The notes below the pieces were generated by a model, which saw nothing but the letters and a program-made list of their open reading frames with translations, searched no databases and was not told where the DNA came from. A stretch of DNA of 64,000 bases, taken from the NCBI RefSeq assembly GCF_000484535.1, contig NC_022600.1, positions 1,426,001 through 1,490,000 on the forward strand. The letters run 5' to 3'. The first letter of the stretch is position 1. Each line of letters begins with the position of its first letter. Positions 4,279 to 39,471 of the stretch are shown piece by piece. Source of the DNA: Gloeobacter kilaueensis JS1 (GTDB lineage Bacteria; Cyanobacteriota; Cyanobacteriia; Gloeobacterales; Gloeobacteraceae). The translations under genes and the position numbers were made by a program.

Positions 4279-4794
4279 CTAAGCGCCGGGGTGGCGCGAG
4301 CGATAGTCGCAGCAGATATTGTGGACCAGATTCTGGCAGACGGAGGCGCTCATCGCACTCACCGCTGTCTGGGCGGCAGATTGGACCACCGGCTGGGGAA
4401 ACATGCCCAGAAAGCCCGGCAGGGTCAATTGAATCGCAAAGCGCGCCTCCCAGAAGACATCGACCGCCGGGGGGCGGGGTGTGAGCTGAAAAAGACCGCT
4501 AAAGTCGGTCTGGTAATCTGACGCGGGCGAGGGGACCGAAAGCAGCCGGTAGCGGCACTCGTCGTCTTCGATGAGTTGGAGCACCATCCGGGGGGCGAGT
4601 TGAAAACCGAGAGCGCCGAATTCGGGAAGCTGCAGATCGAAGTGACCGGCCCCGGTGCGCTGCACTTTAAGAGGGCGAAAACCGACCGGTACCCAGTGAT
4701 CAGGGCCGCGCAGGTAGGTGACTAGAGGGGGCAGCGGGGTCTGCAGACGAACGTCACCCTGGCGGGTGTCCTTGAGCGAGAGCGTCGATGGCAT
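4279..4794 (-). CDS. DUF1997 family protein
   Basis: A soluble protein of 171 residues convergent with the zinc-ribbon protein gene. Recognisable DUF1997 features are a lipid-binding-like beta-rich pattern (RTGAGHFDLQLPEFGALGF, then QLIEDDECRYRLLSV) and conserved PP and SG positions. DUF1997 proteins are found mostly in cyanobacteria and plastids and have no assigned biochemical role. The frame stays open far upstream, but the region before ATG 4794 is Arg/Ser/Pro-rich and unlike the family, so I start at MPSTLSLKD. Identification is by family pattern only; no active site is visible. Confidence 0.65.
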   Translation of the reverse strand: MPSTLSLKDTRQGDVRLQTPLPPLVTYLRGPDHWVPVGFRPLKVQRTGAGHFDLQLPEFGALGFQLAPRMVLQLIEDDECRYRLLSVPSPASDYQTDFSGLFQLTPRPPAVDVFWEARFAIQLTLPGFLGMFPQPVVQSAAQTAVSAMSASVCQNLVHNICCDYRSRHPGA

Positions 4795-4957
4795 GGGCAG
4801 GTTGCACCGGTAGGGAGAGCACCGTGTCCGGCGGCGATTATTCGACCGTTCGGTGGTGAATGGTTGGTTGTGCGGGACAAGAAGCATATCATAAGCGGGC
4901 GGAAGCCCTGTGCGCAGCAGGCACCAGTCGGCTGCGCCACGATGATGTTCGAGGACA

Positions 4958-6589
4958 ATGTTCGATTCGCTTTTTGGGCGCTCAAAACCTACCGGTCGGG
5001 CCGGTTCTTTTTTGGCGGGGGACCGTGCCTGGTTGGCGCTGTTGCTGCTCGCGTCGCTGCTGCTGTATCTGGTCAATCTCGGGGGGGTGCCCCTTCGCGA
5101 TTGGGACGAGGGCATCTACGCCGATGTTTCCCGGACGATGCTCAAGGCACCGGCGGCAGCCCAGGCGTGGCTGTATCCGATGATTCGCGGTCAGCCTTTT
5201 ACCGATAAGCCGCCGCTGCTCTACTGGCTGATGGCCTGTGCCTACGCGATCGGGGGCGTGAGCGAGTGGACGGCGCGGCTGCCGGGGGCGCTGCTGACGG
5301 CGCTGTCGGTCCCGCTGCTGTACGCGATTGGCCGGGAACTGTTTGCGACGCAGCGGGCGGCACTGTTTGGAGCCGGAGTGTATCTGGGGATGCTGCCGAT
5401 GGTCCGCCATGGGCGGCTCGCGATGCTCGACGGAGCGGCGCTGTGTTTTTTTCTGCTCATGGTCTACTGTCTGTTGCGGGCGCGACGCACGCCGGTCTGG
5501 GGGCTGGGGCTGGGGCTGGCCTTTGCCCTGGTCTGTCTCACCAAGGGCATCCTCGGACTGTTGCTGCTGGGGGTTGTGCTGGTCTTTGTGGCCCTCGACT
5601 GCCCGCAGTTGCTGCGCTCGGTCTACCTGTGGGGTGGACTGGTGGCCGGTAGTCTGGCGGTGGGCTGGTGGTACGGCGCGCAGTGGCTGCACTACGGCCT
5701 GGAGTACATGGGCTACGTCGGCGGCGAGAAAAATTTTGCCCGCGTCTGGAAGAGCACCGATCAAAACCAGGGGCCGCCCTGGTATTACCTGCTGGAACTG
5801 TTGAAGTACACCTGGCCCTGGCTCATCTTCCTGCCCCAGGCGCTGGTGCTCGCCTGGAGGAGCCGCGCTGAGAGCTGGGCACGGCTGGTGTTGCTGTGGC
5901 TTGCCATCTTTCTGGTCGTGATTTCGGCGATGGCGACCAAGCTGCCCTGGTACGTCCTGCCGGTCTACCCGGCGATTGCTCTGGCGGTGGGCCATTACCT
6001 TTCTTTGATCTCGAAGGCGGCACCCCGTAGCTGGCTCGCTGGTCTGGTGCTGCTCGCCGTCGTCGGTTGGGGAGGCTGTCTTTATTTCGGTGCTTTCGCA
6101 GCGCCGGGCGATCGAGATCTGCTTGCAACCGTCCTGGTTCTGGCTTTGACGATGACCCTGGCGCTGGTGCTGGTGCGCCGCTCCGGTTCCCAGGCGGCGC
6201 TGGTGCTGCTCGGGGGGAGCTACTGCTGCTGTCTGTTGTTTTTGCTGAGCAGCCACTGGGTCTGGGAGCTGAACGAGGCGTACCCGGTACCGCCGGTGGC
6301 CCGGCTCATCCGCCGCTGGACGCCGCCGGATCGCAGCGTCTATACTTCCTTTGCCCTCGGTCGGCCATCGCTCGATTTTTACAGCGATCATCGGGTGATC
6401 CCGGCTTCGAGCAGTGAACTGGCGCAGCGCTGGCAGCAGGAAGCTCAGCCCTTTTTGCTCGTCGATGCGGCGATGCTCAAAAGCCTGCCTGCCGACGGGC
6501 GGCTGGTTCTGGGCAGTGCCCAGGGGCTGACACTGATCTCGAAGCTGCCCGAGGCAGGACTGGCTCCCCTTACCTCTGTAGCGCAGTAA
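4958..6589 (+). CDS. GT-C membrane glycosyltransferase, family 39/ArnT-like
   Basis: A 543-residue integral membrane protein with about 11-12 hydrophobic segments. It has the acidic first-loop motif DWDEGIYA (about residues 47-54) and the KPPLLYWL motif shared by ArnT and PMT-type enzymes, which use lipid-linked sugars to glycosylate lipids or proteins at the periplasmic side. The C-terminal part has a short periplasmic domain around SSHWVWELNEAYPVPP. Its stop shares one base with the next start (TAATG at 6587-6591), so the two are translationally coupled. Acceptor and sugar cannot be told from sequence; the nearby exosortase suggests cell-surface glycosylation. Confidence 0.82.
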   Translation: MFDSLFGRSKPTGRAGSFLAGDRAWLALLLLASLLLYLVNLGGVPLRDWDEGIYADVSRTMLKAPAAAQAWLYPMIRGQPFTDKPPLLYWLMACAYAIGGVSEWTARLPGALLTALSVPLLYAIGRELFATQRAALFGAGVYLGMLPMVRHGRLAMLDGAALCFFLLMVYCLLRARRTPVWGLGLGLAFALVCLTKGILGLLLLGVVLVFVALDCPQLLRSVYLWGGLVAGSLAVGWWYGAQWLHYGLEYMGYVGGEKNFARVWKSTDQNQGPPWYYLLELLKYTWPWLIFLPQALVLAWRSRAESWARLVLLWLAIFLVVISAMATKLPWYVLPVYPAIALAVGHYLSLISKAAPRSWLAGLVLLAVVGWGGCLYFGAFAAPGDRDLLATVLVLALTMTLALVLVRRSGSQAALVLLGGSYCCCLLFLLSSHWVWELNEAYPVPPVARLIRRWTPPDRSVYTSFALGRPSLDFYSDHRVIPASSSELAQRWQQEAQPFLLVDAAMLKSLPADGRLVLGSAQGLTLISKLPEAGLAPLTSVAQ

Positions 6590-8121
6590 TGTCCTGGATT
6601 CGCTCGCTTATCGACAAATTTTTTGCACCGCTCTTTGAGAACGAGAATCGCTTTGCCCTCACGCTGACGGCGCTCTTTTTCGTCCTCGGTGCGGCGGGCC
6701 TGGTCAACCACGCGATGTGGCGCGATGAGATCAACGTCTGGCTCATCGTCCGGGACAGCCCCTCGTTGCCCGCCCTTTTGAGCAACATCAAGTACGAGGG
6801 CCACCCGGCGCTGTGGTACCTGTGCCTGTATCCCCTCAGCCGCCTCAGCCACAATCCGGCGCTGATGCAGGTTTTTCATCTGCTTCTGGCCACGCTCAGC
6901 GTTTATCTTTTTGTCCGCCATTCGCCCTTCACTCGCCCCCAGAAGCTCTTGTACCTGTTCGGCTACCTGCCCTTCTACGAGTACCTGCTCATCAGCCGCA
7001 ACTACGCGTTCGGTATTTTGCTGGTTTTTGCTTTTTGCACCGTCCACCGGACCCAGCCCAGAAAGTACCTGATCCTCTCGCTGCTTCTGGCGCTGCTCGC
7101 CAATACCAACGCCTACGGGCTGCTCATCGCCGGTTGCCTGCAGGCGATGTTGCTGCTGGAGTGTGCGACCAAAGGGCGGCCCTGGGGGCAGGTGCTGGCC
7201 GGGTCGGGCGTCTTTGGGCTGGGGGCAGTAGCCGCCCTGGCCCTGATCATTCCCAATAAAGACAACACCCTGGCCGGGGGGGCGACCGGCTGGACGCTCT
7301 ACTTTGACCTCAATCACTTTTTTACCGCCCTCACCCGCATCTGGAGCGGCTATATCGTCGTGCTCGTCCCGAACGATGCCCACGCCTGGGAGATGGTGCT
7401 CTTCTCGATTCCGGCCATCGGACTGCTGGCTTTTGGCGGTGCGCTACTCCTGCGCAAGCCCGTCGCCTGTTTTTTTTACCTGAGCGCCACGGCGAGCCTG
7501 TTCGTCCTCACCTACGTAAAGTTCATCGGTGCCCAGAGGCACTTCGGCCACTTTTTTATCGTTCTGCTCGCCGCCCTCTGGCTGGCGGAGCACTATGCCG
7601 AGTCGGACCGGCTCCCAGGCCGCCTGCAGCGGTGGGCCGATTTTGCTGAGCGCTACCGGGGCCGGTTTTTGACGACGATCCTCGTCTTTCAACTGGCCGG
7701 GGGGATCGTGGCTTACTGCCGCGACTGGCTGGTGCCCTACTCCGCGAGCCGGGAGGCGGCGGATTTTATCCACGGCCACGGGCTGGATCGCTTCTTTATC
7801 GTCGGCAGCCGGGACTACGCCATATCGCCCCTGTGCGGCTATCTGGATCGTCAGATCTACTATCCGGAAAACCGCCGCCTCAGCAGCTTCGTGCTCTTTA
7901 ACGGAGCCAGAAAAGAAGTGGACGCAAAAGAAACGCTCGATCAGGTGTATCAGCTTCTTGAAAAGGGGACGCCCGAGCCGATCCTGCTCATCTTGAACCA
8001 TCCTGTCGAACCGGCGGTCGCGGCGGGCCTGAACGTGCGGGTGATGGCCCAGTTTACCGACAGCTTTATTAGCGAAGAAGTCTACTATCTTTATCTCGTG
8101 ACTGTCCGGCACTCGCGCTAA
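6589..8121 (+). CDS. Predicted membrane glycosyltransferase (GT-C fold)
   Basis: A 510-residue polytopic protein coupled to the preceding ArnT-like gene by a TAATG overlap. After the first hydrophobic segment it has MWRDEINVWLIVRDSPS (about residues 44-60), the acidic loop motif expected in GT-C enzymes, followed by YEGHPALWYL, equivalent to the KPPLLYW position of its partner. About ten hydrophobic segments follow, ending in a soluble C-terminal region (about 390-510) that probably lies in the periplasm. It probably works with its neighbour on the same glycan or glycoprotein. No family member with known substrate is recognised. Confidence 0.7.
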   Translation: MSWIRSLIDKFFAPLFENENRFALTLTALFFVLGAAGLVNHAMWRDEINVWLIVRDSPSLPALLSNIKYEGHPALWYLCLYPLSRLSHNPALMQVFHLLLATLSVYLFVRHSPFTRPQKLLYLFGYLPFYEYLLISRNYAFGILLVFAFCTVHRTQPRKYLILSLLLALLANTNAYGLLIAGCLQAMLLLECATKGRPWGQVLAGSGVFGLGAVAALALIIPNKDNTLAGGATGWTLYFDLNHFFTALTRIWSGYIVVLVPNDAHAWEMVLFSIPAIGLLAFGGALLLRKPVACFFYLSATASLFVLTYVKFIGAQRHFGHFFIVLLAALWLAEHYAESDRLPGRLQRWADFAERYRGRFLTTILVFQLAGGIVAYCRDWLVPYSASREAADFIHGHGLDRFFIVGSRDYAISPLCGYLDRQIYYPENRRLSSFVLFNGARKEVDAKETLDQVYQLLEKGTPEPILLILNHPVEPAVAAGLNVRVMAQFTDSFISEEVYYLYLVTVRHSR

Positions 8122-35586: not shown

Positions 35587-36084
35587 ATGTCAGCTTCCGA
35601 TCAACCTCCTGCCCTCACACCCGAGCAATCGGCGCGGCTGAAGCGGCGTCAGGCGCTCAAGGCATCGGTCCAGATGGGCCTGCTGCTGTACTGTGCGCCC
35701 AAGATCCTCCACTCCGAGGCGGTCTACGCCCAGGCCACCCCCTCACCCGGACCGCCTCCCACACCTCCGGCAAATACTGTCCCGGCGGGTGGTGGCGGCA
35801 ACAGCTTTGTGCCGCTGGTACCGATTCTCGCTCTGCCGCTGTTGGGCGGCATCGGCTCCGGCACCGCCGCCGGCATCCCGCCGGCGGCGGTGCCGACGAT
35901 CTTCGGTGTGCCGATCGCCGGTACCGGGACAGCGCCACTGCTGGGCCGGGCCGATACGCCGGTACCGACCCCACGGGGTGTCCTGGGTCCCCGGCCCCGC
36001 GCCGTCCTGGGTCCCACGCCGTTTGGACGGGGCCGCCGGGCGCGCGGTGGCCGCACGCGCCGGGCCATACGCGGCCTGGGCTAG
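35587..36084 (+). CDS. Small Arg-Arg-leader protein, Pro/Gly-rich (possible cassette substrate)
   Basis: A 165-residue protein beginning MSASDQPPALTPEQSARLKR, then a twin-Arg RRQALKASVQMG and a hydrophobic run ending at YAQA, which resembles a Tat-like leader with cleavage near residue 53. The mature part is built from Pro, Gly, Ala and Thr with GVLGPRP-type repeats and a very basic tail (RGRRARGGRTRRAIRG). No enzyme motif is seen. It is encoded nine bases before the L,D-transpeptidase gene of a PqqD/HprK cassette. The N-terminal KRRQxLK...YCAPKIL pattern is what one would expect of a leader recognised by that system, so it is a candidate substrate. Confidence 0.6.
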   Translation: MSASDQPPALTPEQSARLKRRQALKASVQMGLLLYCAPKILHSEAVYAQATPSPGPPPTPPANTVPAGGGGNSFVPLVPILALPLLGGIGSGTAAGIPPAAVPTIFGVPIAGTGTAPLLGRADTPVPTPRGVLGPRPRAVLGPTPFGRGRRARGGRTRRAIRGLG

Positions 36085-36093
36085 AGGACGGCC

Positions 36094-36687
36094 ATGCTCC
36101 AGCGCTTTCGCCTCCGCAAGCGAATCAAGTTTTTTAGCCGAGGCGATCTGTGGTTTCTGGGTTCACTCGTGCTTTTAGCCGTCCTCGGTATCAGCCCCTG
36201 GATCTGGATGCGGGTGCGGCCCGTGGCCGCCCAGGTGATCGCCGCCACCACTTCCCAGTTTTCGACCGGTGTTACCAACAACCAGTACAACGAACCGCCC
36301 TGGATCGAGATTTCGACCGACGAGCACCTGCTGCGGCTGCGCACCGGCATCAACCAGATTCTCTGGGAAGCGCCGGTGGCCGTCGGTAAATCGCGGACGC
36401 CGACACCAAAAGGCCAGTTCGAGGTGATCGAGATGGTCGAGCATCCCGTCTGGCAAGATCCGTTCAATCCCCGGATCATCTACGACGAGAAGAACCCGCG
36501 CAATCCCCTGGGCCTCCGGTGGATCGGCTTCAAGCAGGCGGGCCTCAACGACTACGGCCTGCACGGCACCACCAGCATCAGTTCGATCGGTCGCTCGGTG
36601 ACCAACGGTTGCGTGCGGTTGCGCAACGAAGATATTGTTTTTCTCTACGATCAAGTCGAGGAAGGCACGCCCGTCGTCATCCACTGA
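36094..36687 (+). CDS. L,D-transpeptidase (YkuD family)
   Basis: A 197-residue membrane-anchored enzyme that makes 3-3 peptidoglycan cross-links or attaches proteins to the wall. One hydrophobic segment (about 20-37) precedes a YkuD domain with TPTPKGQFEV and the catalytic block His157-GTTS, then SVTNGCVRLRNED with Cys173 and Arg175. All expected residues are present. It is the second gene of a five-gene cassette; wall attachment of the upstream small protein is an attractive but untested link. Confidence 0.9.
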   Translation: MLQRFRLRKRIKFFSRGDLWFLGSLVLLAVLGISPWIWMRVRPVAAQVIAATTSQFSTGVTNNQYNEPPWIEISTDEHLLRLRTGINQILWEAPVAVGKSRTPTPKGQFEVIEMVEHPVWQDPFNPRIIYDEKNPRNPLGLRWIGFKQAGLNDYGLHGTTSISSIGRSVTNGCVRLRNEDIVFLYDQVEEGTPVVIH

Positions 36688-36695
36688 ACCCTCCC

Positions 36696-36998
36696 GTGAA
36701 CCCAGCGCAGGCAAACAGCACCCACCCCCAGGCCCGCAGCGACGTGCTCGGCGAATTTCTCGCCGACGGCAGTGCGGTGCTCTTCGATCCGCTCACCAGT
36801 GTCGCCCACGAGTTGAATCCGACCGCTGCCCTCGTCTGGGACTGGTGCGACGGCGAGCACAGCGCCGATCAGATCGTCGCGGCGGTCGAAGAATGTTTCG
36901 GCACCGGTGGCCAGGACTGCCGGAGGGATGTCTACTACTTTCTGGCCTACCTCGAAGGGTTGGGACTTTTAGCCCGCGCCGGGGAGCAGCACCCTTGA
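36696..36998 (+). CDS. PqqD-like peptide chaperone
   Basis: A 100-residue PqqD-family protein starting at GTG 36696, nine bases after the transpeptidase. Typical elements are a strand pair (SAVLFDPLTSVAHELNPTAA) followed by ALVWDWCDG and helices ending with DVYYFLAYLEGLGLL. PqqD domains bind leader peptides of ribosomally made, modified peptides. Its stop overlaps the TTG start of the HprK-related gene, so the two are coupled. It corresponds to the PqqD-family member described in the HPr-rel-A type cassettes. Confidence 0.75.
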   Translation: MNPAQANSTHPQARSDVLGEFLADGSAVLFDPLTSVAHELNPTAALVWDWCDGEHSADQIVAAVEECFGTGGQDCRRDVYYFLAYLEGLGLLARAGEQHP

Positions 36999-37816
36999 GG
37001 CTCGCCCATCGTGCCCCATCGCACCTTGACCTGCTGGGCCAGCGGGTGAGCGTGAGTGGACCGGCGGCCTGCCGGATACCGCTGATGACGCTGCTGGCTC
37101 CCTTCGCCGCCCGTCCAGCGAGCGATAGCCTCATCGTCCGCTTCAGTGAGGGCAGCGGCGGCGGCTACAGGCTGGAACTGCCGAGCCTGTGCTGCTGGGG
37201 GAGTGCGGCGGAGCTGGTGCCTTTTTGTGAGTGGTGGCTGGTGAGCCGCTCCCTCGTCCTGCGGCCAGAACTGTGCCCGCTGCACGGGGCGGCGGTGGCG
37301 CGGGGCGAAGCGGCAATCTTGCTGCCGGGTGCCTCCGGCTCGGGCAAGACGACCCTGACGCTTGCCCTACTGGGGCGGGGCTTCGTGCCTTTCGCTGACG
37401 ATCTGATCTTGCTCGACGAGCAGCTGGCGGTCCAGCCCTTCGAGCGCTGCTTTCACATCGACGAGCAGACCGAGCGGATTGTCGAGCGGCTGGCGGTAGC
37501 ACCGCTGCTTGCCTTTGAGCACCTGCCGCCCGGCTACTGCCGCCCACGGCGCTGGGCGACACCCCGGCCCCCGCGCTGCATCGTCTGGCCCGAGTACCGG
37601 CCAGGACTGGCCGCACCCCAGCTTGTGGCGCTGCGCCCCGGCCACTGCTGGACGCTGCTTGTCAACCAGTTGATTGCCGGTAGCGCACAAGCCAATCGCC
37701 ACTTTGCGCGCCTGCGCGCCCTGGTGGACAGTGCCCCGGCCTGGCAGCTCGCCTATTCGGAGCCGGAGCAGGCGACAGGCGCGATCGAGAAGTTGCTCGT
37801 CGCCGGACTGGGATGA
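36995..37816 (+). CDS. HprK-related kinase
   Basis: A 273-residue protein read from TTG 36995, which overlaps the PqqD stop. It resembles the C-terminal half of HPr kinase/phosphorylase: CPLHGAAVARGEAAILL, then a P-loop at 112-120 (GASGSGKTT) followed by FVPFADDLILLDE. There is no HPr substrate gene nearby; in the related cassettes this kinase is thought to act on a peptide or small protein. The first 90 residues are variable. Its stop overlaps the next start by ATGA (37813-37816). Confidence 0.75.
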   Translation: MRLAHRAPSHLDLLGQRVSVSGPAACRIPLMTLLAPFAARPASDSLIVRFSEGSGGGYRLELPSLCCWGSAAELVPFCEWWLVSRSLVLRPELCPLHGAAVARGEAAILLPGASGSGKTTLTLALLGRGFVPFADDLILLDEQLAVQPFERCFHIDEQTERIVERLAVAPLLAFEHLPPGYCRPRRWATPRPPRCIVWPEYRPGLAAPQLVALRPGHCWTLLVNQLIAGSAQANRHFARLRALVDSAPAWQLAYSEPEQATGAIEKLLVAGLG

Positions 37817-38889
37817 ATATCGCTGTCGCTCTGGCGCGCTATTTGAGCTGTCCGCCCGAGTTGCGCGAACCGCTCGGAGGCGAGTGGGATGGACTCGCCC
37901 CATCGACCTGGCAGGCGCTCATCAGCTACTTCGAGGCGCGGGAACTGGCGCTGGAAGCCTACCAGGCGTTCGTCGTCGAAAAGCGGCTGGAGCTGCCGGA
38001 GGCGGAGGCGCTCCGGCTGCGCCGCCACTACGTGCGCTCGGTGGCGAGCGTGCGCTGGCTTACCAGCGAACTGGGGCGCGTCAGCCGTGCCTTTGCGGCG
38101 GTCGGCATCGAGCCCGTACTGCTCAAAGGGGCGTACCTGGGCGCATTGCTCTGGCCCGATCCGGCCTTGCGCCCCTTCGCCGACCTCGATCTGTGGGTGC
38201 GGCCCCAGGAGGTGCAGGCCGCCGATGCTGCCCTACGAACCATAGGCTACGGCGGCGGCCCGGTCGATCCGAGCGTCGTCCTCGATCCGCTCTACCACGA
38301 ACTGCCAGCCTATCAACTGGCAGGCAGCGGTCCCGGTATTCGCGCCAGCGTCGATCTGCACTATCACCTCGCCCCCGCCTACCTGCCGGTACCCGACGAG
38401 GAAGCGATGCGCCGCCGCTGCGTTCCGTGGCGCGATTGTTTGCAGGTGCTGGCAGCAGAAGATCTGCCCGTCTACCTGTGCGGCCACATTGCCCGGCACC
38501 TGTTCGTCGAGCACAGGCCGGAACTGTTGTTTCAGGCGGGCTACCGCTACCTGGGCGAGCTGGCTCGCCTGGTGGTCTATGGCCTGCGGCGCTGGCGCTG
38601 GGAGCGCGTCGCCGCCGGGCTGGCGCGCAATCGCCATCGCCGGGCGCTGCTGTTGCCGCTGCGCCTGGTCAACCGGCTCTGGAACGTCGTTCTGCCGGAG
38701 CCGATCGTGGATCTCTACCGCAAGGATCTGTTGGGTGAGGCGGTGCTGCGGGCGCTACTCGCCCGGATGGACCGTCCCTGGCAGGAGCTTGAGAGTCGGA
38801 TGCTCACTTTCTGCAGCTACGCGCTGCCCGACTACCTCTCGCGGCGGCGCTGGCTGGTGCGCCTGCGAAAGCGGCCCGGTGCGCGCTAG
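37813..38889 (+). CDS. Nucleotidyltransferase family protein (NTP_transf_5-like)
   Basis: A 358-residue protein with the nucleotidyltransferase signature LKG at 104-106 followed by PFADLDLWVRP with Asp124-x-Asp126 as the metal-binding pair. The rest is helical, with His-rich HIARHLFVEH later on. Family members occur next to PqqD and HprK-like genes in predicted peptide-modification or exopolysaccharide cassettes and may transfer a nucleotide to protein or small molecule. It ends in an antisense overlap of 135 bases with the CAP-domain gene. Confidence 0.75.
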   Translation: MNIAVALARYLSCPPELREPLGGEWDGLAPSTWQALISYFEARELALEAYQAFVVEKRLELPEAEALRLRRHYVRSVASVRWLTSELGRVSRAFAAVGIEPVLLKGAYLGALLWPDPALRPFADLDLWVRPQEVQAADAALRTIGYGGGPVDPSVVLDPLYHELPAYQLAGSGPGIRASVDLHYHLAPAYLPVPDEEAMRRRCVPWRDCLQVLAAEDLPVYLCGHIARHLFVEHRPELLFQAGYRYLGELARLVVYGLRRWRWERVAAGLARNRHRRALLLPLRLVNRLWNVVLPEPIVDLYRKDLLGEAVLRALLARMDRPWQELESRMLTFCSYALPDYLSRRRWLVRLRKRPGAR

Positions 38890-39471
38890 GGGCAGGGGAC
38901 TTGGAGCGATGAGCACCACAAAGTAGGTGCCGTAGGTGCTCCTCGCCCCACAGGCCATGCCGATGCCCACCTCCGTCGCCCGATGGTAGGCCGGGAGCTG
39001 GCTGAGCAGCTGCTGGCGATGGTAGGGCACGGGCAATCCTTCATCGCGCACCAGTTGGTCGATCGCTTCGCTGCCTGAACTGACACCGGAGCTGATCGAC
39101 TCGACTTGGTTGGCCCCGGCGTCGAGCGGATAGGTCACCGGCAGCCTGTAACCGGCCCGCACCAGCCGCTGGTTCGGCCCCAGGCCGTCGAGGCTGCGGT
39201 GCGAGAAATAATCGTGACTGGCCATGTCCTCCGCCCGGCTCTGGGCAATCTGCGCAAGCTGGTCGTTCCAGTGCAGAGCAGCCACCGGCTGTCCGGCGTA
39301 GGCACCGGGATGGGCGCGCAGGTAGTTGAGGCGGGCGTAAGCGGCGCTCACCTCGCCCGCCCGGTCTGGGCAGATCGTCTCGGCCTGCAGCGGTCCCTGG
39401 CCGCTCCACAACAGCCCAGCCAGCACCAGGACAACAGACAACCAGCGACGGTCAACGCGCATACGAGTCAT
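38755..39471 (-). CDS. CAP (SCP/PR-1) domain exported protein
   Basis: A 238-residue protein with a signal peptide (about 1-30, ending PLQAE) and a CAP domain at about 45-190. The conserved core is visible: LNYLRAHPGAYAG, ALHWNDQLAQIAQSRAEDMA, HDYFSHRSLDGLGPNQR and a late GIGMACG. The last ~45 residues are Pro/Arg-rich and lie over the 3' end of the nucleotidyltransferase gene; they are probably a tail with no conserved role. Extracellular or periplasmic; function unknown, as for most bacterial CAP proteins. Confidence 0.78.
   Translation of the reverse strand: MTRMRVDRRWLSVVLVLAGLLWSGQGPLQAETICPDRAGEVSAAYARLNYLRAHPGAYAGQPVAALHWNDQLAQIAQSRAEDMASHDYFSHRSLDGLGPNQRLVRAGYRLPVTYPLDAGANQVESISSGVSSGSEAIDQLVRDEGLPVPYHRQQLLSQLPAYHRATEVGIGMACGARSTYGTYFVVLIAPSPLPLARTGPLSQAHQPAPPREVVGQRVAAESEHPTLKLLPGTVHPGE

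Follow-up and report, generated by a model that had tools for sequence, protein, structure and literature searches.

PqqD-type RiPP recognition elements (RREs; RiPP, ribosomally synthesized and post-translationally modified peptide) recognize lasso-peptide leaders through a [Y/W]xxPx[L/V/I/F/A] motif, and the linear polyphosphorylated peptides (LPPs) of Bacillota, reported in 2026, have a leader of the form YxxPxVLxHQxIxFETxxS (PMC13381572). In the LPP system the leader Tyr and Pro are held by the RRE LppB, in which D70 and N33 are important, and Ser3 of the LppA core is the residue that the kinase LppK phosphorylates, a modification abolished by an S3A substitution (PMC13381572). Here we describe a related cassette in a 64,000-nucleotide stretch of Gloeobacter kilaueensis JS1 (contig NC_022600.1, positions 1,426,001 to 1,490,000; the whole stretch is called the window below), which lies within a genome consisting of a single contig of 4,724,791 bp. 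The cassette occupies window positions 35587–38889 and encodes a small secreted protein, an L,D-transpeptidase, a PqqD-type RRE, an HprK-related kinase, and an NTP_transf_5 protein (NT). We consider it probable that the cassette is a system for phosphorylating, and then decorating, one small secreted protein at a fixed Ser before its export, and that it has recruited a cell-wall transpeptidase of its own.

Like the LPP system, the cassette combines a discrete RRE with an HprK kinase and an NTP transferase, and it shares with that system a YxxPx[VI]L leader (the V position being Ile or Val here), a Ser 15 residues past the motif Pro (P+15), and equivalents of RRE residues N33 and D70. Unlike in the LPP system, the leader is fused to an Arg-Arg (RR)-type signal peptide and there is an extra L,D-transpeptidase, and neither the SipW-like/archaeal-type SpI peptidase nor the MsbA-like transporter of LPP is found among the five genes and the two genes flanking them. 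A second close relative is the HPr-rel-A class, defined by the NCBIfam models TIGR04352 (HprK-related kinase A) and TIGR04353 (PqqD_rel_X) with an NTP_transf_5 protein; we found no paper naming this system in the open-access literature. The adjacent gene order PqqD-HprK-NT, an RR-leader protein upstream, and a leader Pro with Ser at P+15 are common to both, whereas the window kinase (64.2 bits on TIGR04352, cut-off 200) and PqqD (24.0 bits on TIGR04353, cut-off 35) fall under the curated cut-offs, the transpeptidase is extra, and the locus is not exopolysaccharide-like. The paeninodin and pseudomycoidin lasso clusters also have an RRE and a kinase-NT tailoring pair (PMC9266682), but their target Ser is at the C terminus rather than near the N terminus as proposed here, and neither the five cassette genes nor the two beside them encode the lasso macrolactam synthetase (C) or B2 peptidase. 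The SynChlorMet models score 13.1 bits for ScmC (cut-off 125) and 34.8 bits for ScmD (cut-off 100). By the models or cluster rules that define each class, the cassette does not belong to HPr-rel-A, LPP, lasso, or SynChlorMet; it is LPP/HPr-rel-A-like yet outside the NCBI cut-offs and the LPP cluster definition.

A conserved five-gene cassette in Gloeobacterales

All five open reading frames are present on the + strand: the small secreted protein and proposed substrate (35587..36084, 165 aa), the L,D-transpeptidase of the YkuD family (36094..36687, 197 aa, with an N-terminal hydrophobic segment), the PqqD-type RRE (36696..36998, 100 aa, GTG start), the HprK-related kinase (36995..37816, 273 aa, TTG start), and the NT (37813..38889, 358 aa). 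The genes are separated by 9 nt and 8 nt and then by two 4-nt overlaps, which suggests that they form one transcription unit. A promoter scan found none, and terminator-like sites were not clearly more frequent than in shuffled sequence.

In a search of relatives, three further genera of Gloeobacterales were found to have the kinase gene, at 42–43% identity over the alignment; two of these genera belong to the same family as Gloeobacter and one to another family. Their loci carry the same five genes in identical order, and the four enzymes are 42–57% identical between the window and the three other genera; because the order is conserved at this distance, it is no chance arrangement. For one of these relatives the small-protein gene is broken over two contigs in a repeat, and its N terminus was located separately. 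The kinase gene is absent from three other genomes of the genus Gloeobacter, as are the transpeptidase, NT, and small protein of the cassette, while these genomes retain two other YkuD genes each. With all parts missing together, the cassette is evidently gained or lost as a unit. Scanning a sample of the cyanobacterial phylum gave no further cassette. A preliminary description of the window, made from its sequence alone, had recognized five consecutive genes, which the tight spacing and the order kept in other genera bear out. It had also staked its proposal on the small protein and the transpeptidase co-occurring with PqqD and HprK in other genomes, and the two do accompany PqqD/HprK in all four cassette-bearing genera.

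Leader motif, proposed target serine, and putative modifying enzymes

The small protein matches no Pfam or NCBIfam family and is well conserved only at its two ends. At the N terminus all four genera share the pattern RRxxhK...YxxP(K/Q)(I/V)LxS..VxAQ...S, which in the window begins with the Arg-Arg of the signal peptide (residues 20–21, 35644..35649, + strand, as are all features of the cassette given below) and continues with YCAPKIL (35689..35709), the proposed RRE-binding motif, which conforms to YxxP[KQ][IV]L in 4/4. The V-x-A↓Q that follows is plausibly a signal-peptidase I site, and Ser53 (35743..35745; Ser in 4/4), the proposed phosphorylation site, would become residue 5 of the mature protein upon cleavage at VYA↓Q. 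The very end of the protein is basic, RRAIRGLG (36058..36081) in the window and [RK][RK]x[IV][RK]GL[GW] in all four.

The YxxPx(I/V) block inside these signal peptides fits both the lasso-leader and the LPP-leader motifs, and the putative binding pocket fits as well. The window PqqD scores 57.1 bits on Pfam PqqD (cut-off 23.4), although it is under every NCBIfam cut-off. When the PqqDs of the four Gloeobacterales genera are combined in a profile and aligned with crystallized LppB (9x8z), N33, D70, F74, M78, and L83 of LppB fall on window N41, D78, F82, L86, and L91, and these five positions are invariant in all four genera, with Leu as the M78 equivalent; Asn41 is encoded at 36816-36818 and Asp78 at 36927-36929. 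Across phyla, we compared 18 loci in which an RR-leader protein stands beside PqqD-HprK. Twelve of their leaders bear the motif, where 0.7 would be expected by shuffling. The D70-equivalent Asp is present in 12/12 motif-bearing loci versus 0/6 motif-less loci (Fisher 5e-5), and the N33-equivalent Asn in 11/12 versus 1/6. The loci combining an RR-leader lacking YxxP with a PqqD lacking the Asp are the Ktedonobacterales-like cassettes L115, L117, L118, L121, L018, and L020.

The position of the proposed target Ser gives a second point of agreement. LppA Ser3 lies 15 residues past the motif Pro, the same offset as that of Ser53 in the G. kilaueensis protein. With all leaders anchored on the motif Pro, Ser occurs at P+15 in 4/4 Gloeobacterales proteins versus 0.9 expected from random placement within each leader, and in 18/20 proteobacterial leaders versus 2.4 expected on the same basis (12/14 once similar leaders are removed). 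There is a single sharp Ser peak past the leader, with at most 5 of the 20 proteobacterial sequences having Ser at any single other offset from +11 to +27. Since sequences within a phylum are related and the counts are not independent, the weight rests on the identical offset in separate groups, namely Bacillota, where it comes from experiment, and Gloeobacterales and proteobacteria, where it comes from sequence, with a near match in Chloroflexota.

RR-leader proteins recur beside such cassettes elsewhere. Within the phylum to which a Ktedonobacterales genome belongs, an RR-leader protein is directly upstream in 14 of the 32 loci read; four of the 32 came from a contig scan with a kinase alignment, which gave six relatives in all and was less productive than profile searches by phylum. 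Eight of the 14 leaders carry the motif within the signal peptide (YVTPTL, YVKPSV, YVKPSL, WTKPGL, WSKPDL twice, WNTPEL, and WIKPDA). HPr-rel-A cassettes are common: in the phylum that includes a gammaproteobacterial genome, the NCBI cut-off for this class is exceeded in 60 of 398 genomes sampled. An RR-leader protein resembling RRRxLLKGLAAGVPAIVTLQSGAALA↓ASS was seen at no fewer than 20 of the 30 loci read there; the three such proteins examined match no NCBIfam or Pfam family above cut-off. The idea that the small protein is an unusual addition is therefore rejected, as RR-leader proteins recur beside such cassettes in two other phyla. At one locus (L107, 8958-10772, − strand), PqqD is directly preceded by a tandem pair of RR-leader proteins (YVKPSV and YIKPAI) that carry long Pro-Ser repeats. 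By eye, the proteobacterial HPr-rel-A loci L138, L144, L146, L148, L149, and L150 adjoin glycosyltransferase-like and/or asparagine-synthase-like genes, neighbors that hint at a modified protein serving a polysaccharide pathway.

The putative modifying enzymes differ in how firmly they can be assigned. The window kinase scores 21.3 bits on Hpr_kinase_C, under the Pfam cut-off of 33.3; its predicted structure (pLDDT 86.6) has the PEPCK/HprK fold (Foldseek E 4e-6 for PEPCK and 1.7e-4 for HprK), and it carries DD motifs and an invariant P-loop, GASGSGKTT (37328-37354). Because fold and motifs coincide, kinase chemistry is likely. The NT scores 107.3 bits on Pfam NTP_transf_5 (cut-off 31.2) and has a DxD (Asp124 and Asp126, 38182-38190) that is kept in distant relatives. 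Its model is weak (pLDDT 64), and its best fold matches, which include LnuA, ANT(2''), and FKRP, all have E > 0.001, so that we would assign it to the nucleotidyltransferase superfamily only. Its closest characterized counterpart is PsmN, which is reported to put one or two hexoses on the phosphoserine of pseudomycoidin, where an indirect role is possible (PMC9266682).

From these features, we propose that the small protein carries an RR-type signal peptide which at the same time serves as its RiPP-style leader. PqqD would bind YxxPx[IV]L inside the signal peptide, as the conserved motif and pocket residues suggest, and the HprK-like kinase would then phosphorylate Ser53, as expected from the analogy with LppK and the conserved spacing. 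Least secure among the steps in the cytoplasm is the next one, in which the NT may add a second group to the phosphoserine in the manner of PsmN. The modified protein would be exported via Tat or Sec and cleaved, and finally the dedicated L,D-transpeptidase would act on the wall in connection with the product.

Several observations weigh against this proposal. The six motif-less loci resemble one Ktedonobacterales-like lineage, so phylogeny confounds the covariation of Asp and motif, and the six leaders of that kind have no YxxP at all. Chloroflexota-type leaders have their Ser peak one residue earlier, at P+14 in 7/8, and proteobacterial leaders retain the Pro and Ser but do not keep the Tyr/Trp. 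The kinase is far under the cut-off of its nearest NCBIfam model, HprK_rel_A (64.2 bits versus 200), the protein that corresponds to the NT in the LPP system, LppN, showed no activity when tested (PMC13381572), and the G. kilaueensis protein matches no TAT model. Still, the preliminary description's picture of a secreted protein being modified by a peptide-modification cassette gains support from the four-genus co-occurrence, the leader motif, and the RRE residues; of its two suggested modifications, phosphorylation, here of one specific Ser, has better support than nucleotidylation.

The cassette is flanked on the opposite strand by an M28 peptidase gene upstream and a CAP-domain gene downstream. 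The CAP-domain gene (38755-39471, −) runs tail-to-tail with the NT gene and overlaps it by 135 bp; the same neighbor is found in one of the other genera (L013 9623-10300, −), where the overlap with the NT is 39 bp. Elsewhere in the G. kilaueensis genome (contig C1), a lasso-like PqqD locus with asparagine-synthetase-like, HprK-like, and NT genes lies at 2270000-2288000 (L015), and a PqqD locus with a transglutaminase-like protein and an NT lies at 3200000-3212000 (L016). Near 2,987,000 (L017), a short open reading frame (7184-7429, −) with the end MKSSQKRAYIAPQVKPLGNLTAMT...HSVC and a YxxPxV motif adjoins an HprK-like gene and an ABC exporter (6237-7190 and 4432-6234), possibly a second RiPP locus.

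The L,D-transpeptidase and alternative readings

The transpeptidase scores 84.9 bits on Pfam YkuD (cut-off 23.4) and, judging from HGT...VTNGC with catalytic His157 and Cys173 (the latter at 36610-36612 by alignment), looks intact. The cassette transpeptidases group in a clade of their own (100/100 support, long stem) that excludes the other YkuD proteins of Gloeobacterales and cyanobacteria. We found no YkuD gene in 28 outside loci up to ~8 kb or within ~1.5 kb of 30 proteobacterial loci, in a motif and cassette-profile search that distant forms may escape. Within the sampled set, the transpeptidase is a Gloeobacterales-specific addition, being present in 4/4 there and in 0/58 outside loci and forming its own clade. 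Of the two genes that the preliminary description regarded as added, then, only the transpeptidase is one, since cassettes of this kind in other phyla are often accompanied by a protein with such a leader; its further suggestion that the protein is attached to peptidoglycan is not supported, as the mature G. kilaueensis protein has no Lys for an Lpp-type mechanism.

What the transpeptidase does can be read in two ways. It may remodel peptidoglycan at the site that the product crosses or occupies, by 3-3 cross-linking or stem exchange, without being joined to it. This is a serious possibility, to which we give somewhat less than even weight: the enzyme's YkuD domain is of the ordinary kind, catalytic His and Cys included, its closest solved structure is Bacillus YkuD, and the problem of the missing Lys is sidestepped, but the tie of the gene to one operon is left unexplained, and the cassettes outside Gloeobacterales do without a transpeptidase. 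Alternatively, the enzyme may link the exported, modified protein to peptidoglycan diaminopimelate, likeliest via the new N terminus by the modified Ser. L,D-transpeptidases are known to join other proteins to the wall through either the side chain of Lys or an Ala/Gly at the N terminus (PMC12274547), and the pairing of a YkuD enzyme with a secreted protein recalls Lpp with LdtA-C and the N-terminally anchored outer-membrane proteins, although here the enzyme is encoded beside both its putative partner and a kinase. The position of the transpeptidase gene directly 3′ of the small-protein gene in 4/4 genera and its dedicated clade argue for such a link. Against it, the mature G. kilaueensis protein has 0 Lys after the predicted cleavage site and the C termini in the other three genera have no conserved Lys. 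Lpp-style anchoring through Lys is therefore ruled out for G. kilaueensis, and only an N-terminal link is left. Attachment through the N-terminal amine is possible, but the predicted N-terminal residue is Gln, neither Ala nor Gly. We thus regard covalent linkage as unlikely on present evidence, and local wall remodeling as at least as likely.

Two further alternatives concern the substrate. PqqD, the kinase, and the NT could act on another peptide or regulator, with the small protein being a plain exported basic protein that shares the operon; the link between enzymes and small protein comes from sequence, and the genome has other lasso-like PqqD/HprK/NT loci. We find this improbable, because an RR-leader protein recurs beside cassettes in three lineages and the leader motif covaries with the RRE residues. 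Least probable by a further step is that signal peptides show the motif and the Ser spacing by chance, since, short as the motif is (per-leader shuffle probabilities of 2–14%), its excess over shuffling among the 18 loci, the RRE covariation, and the single Ser peak at P+15 all speak against it.

Returning to modification before export, a bolder and doubtful extension is that, in HPr-rel-A-type cassettes of several phyla, the signal peptide is the RiPP leader to which PqqD binds, the kinase marks one Ser shortly past the signal-peptidase cleavage point, and the NT extends it, and that in Gloeobacterales this marked N terminus is then joined to peptidoglycan. The Gloeobacterales part would amount to a new kind of wall anchoring, dependent on a kinase and carried out by a dedicated L,D-transpeptidase. 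For the HPr-rel-A class, our analysis provides a specific prediction: the neighboring RR-leader protein would be the substrate, with docking in its signal peptide and the Ser at P+15 as the target. If this is true, a signal peptide can double as a RiPP leader, proteins can gain phosphate-linked groups before translocation, and, in the cyanobacteria that branch earliest, the Gloeobacterales transpeptidase would tie a modification of this kind to the cell wall.

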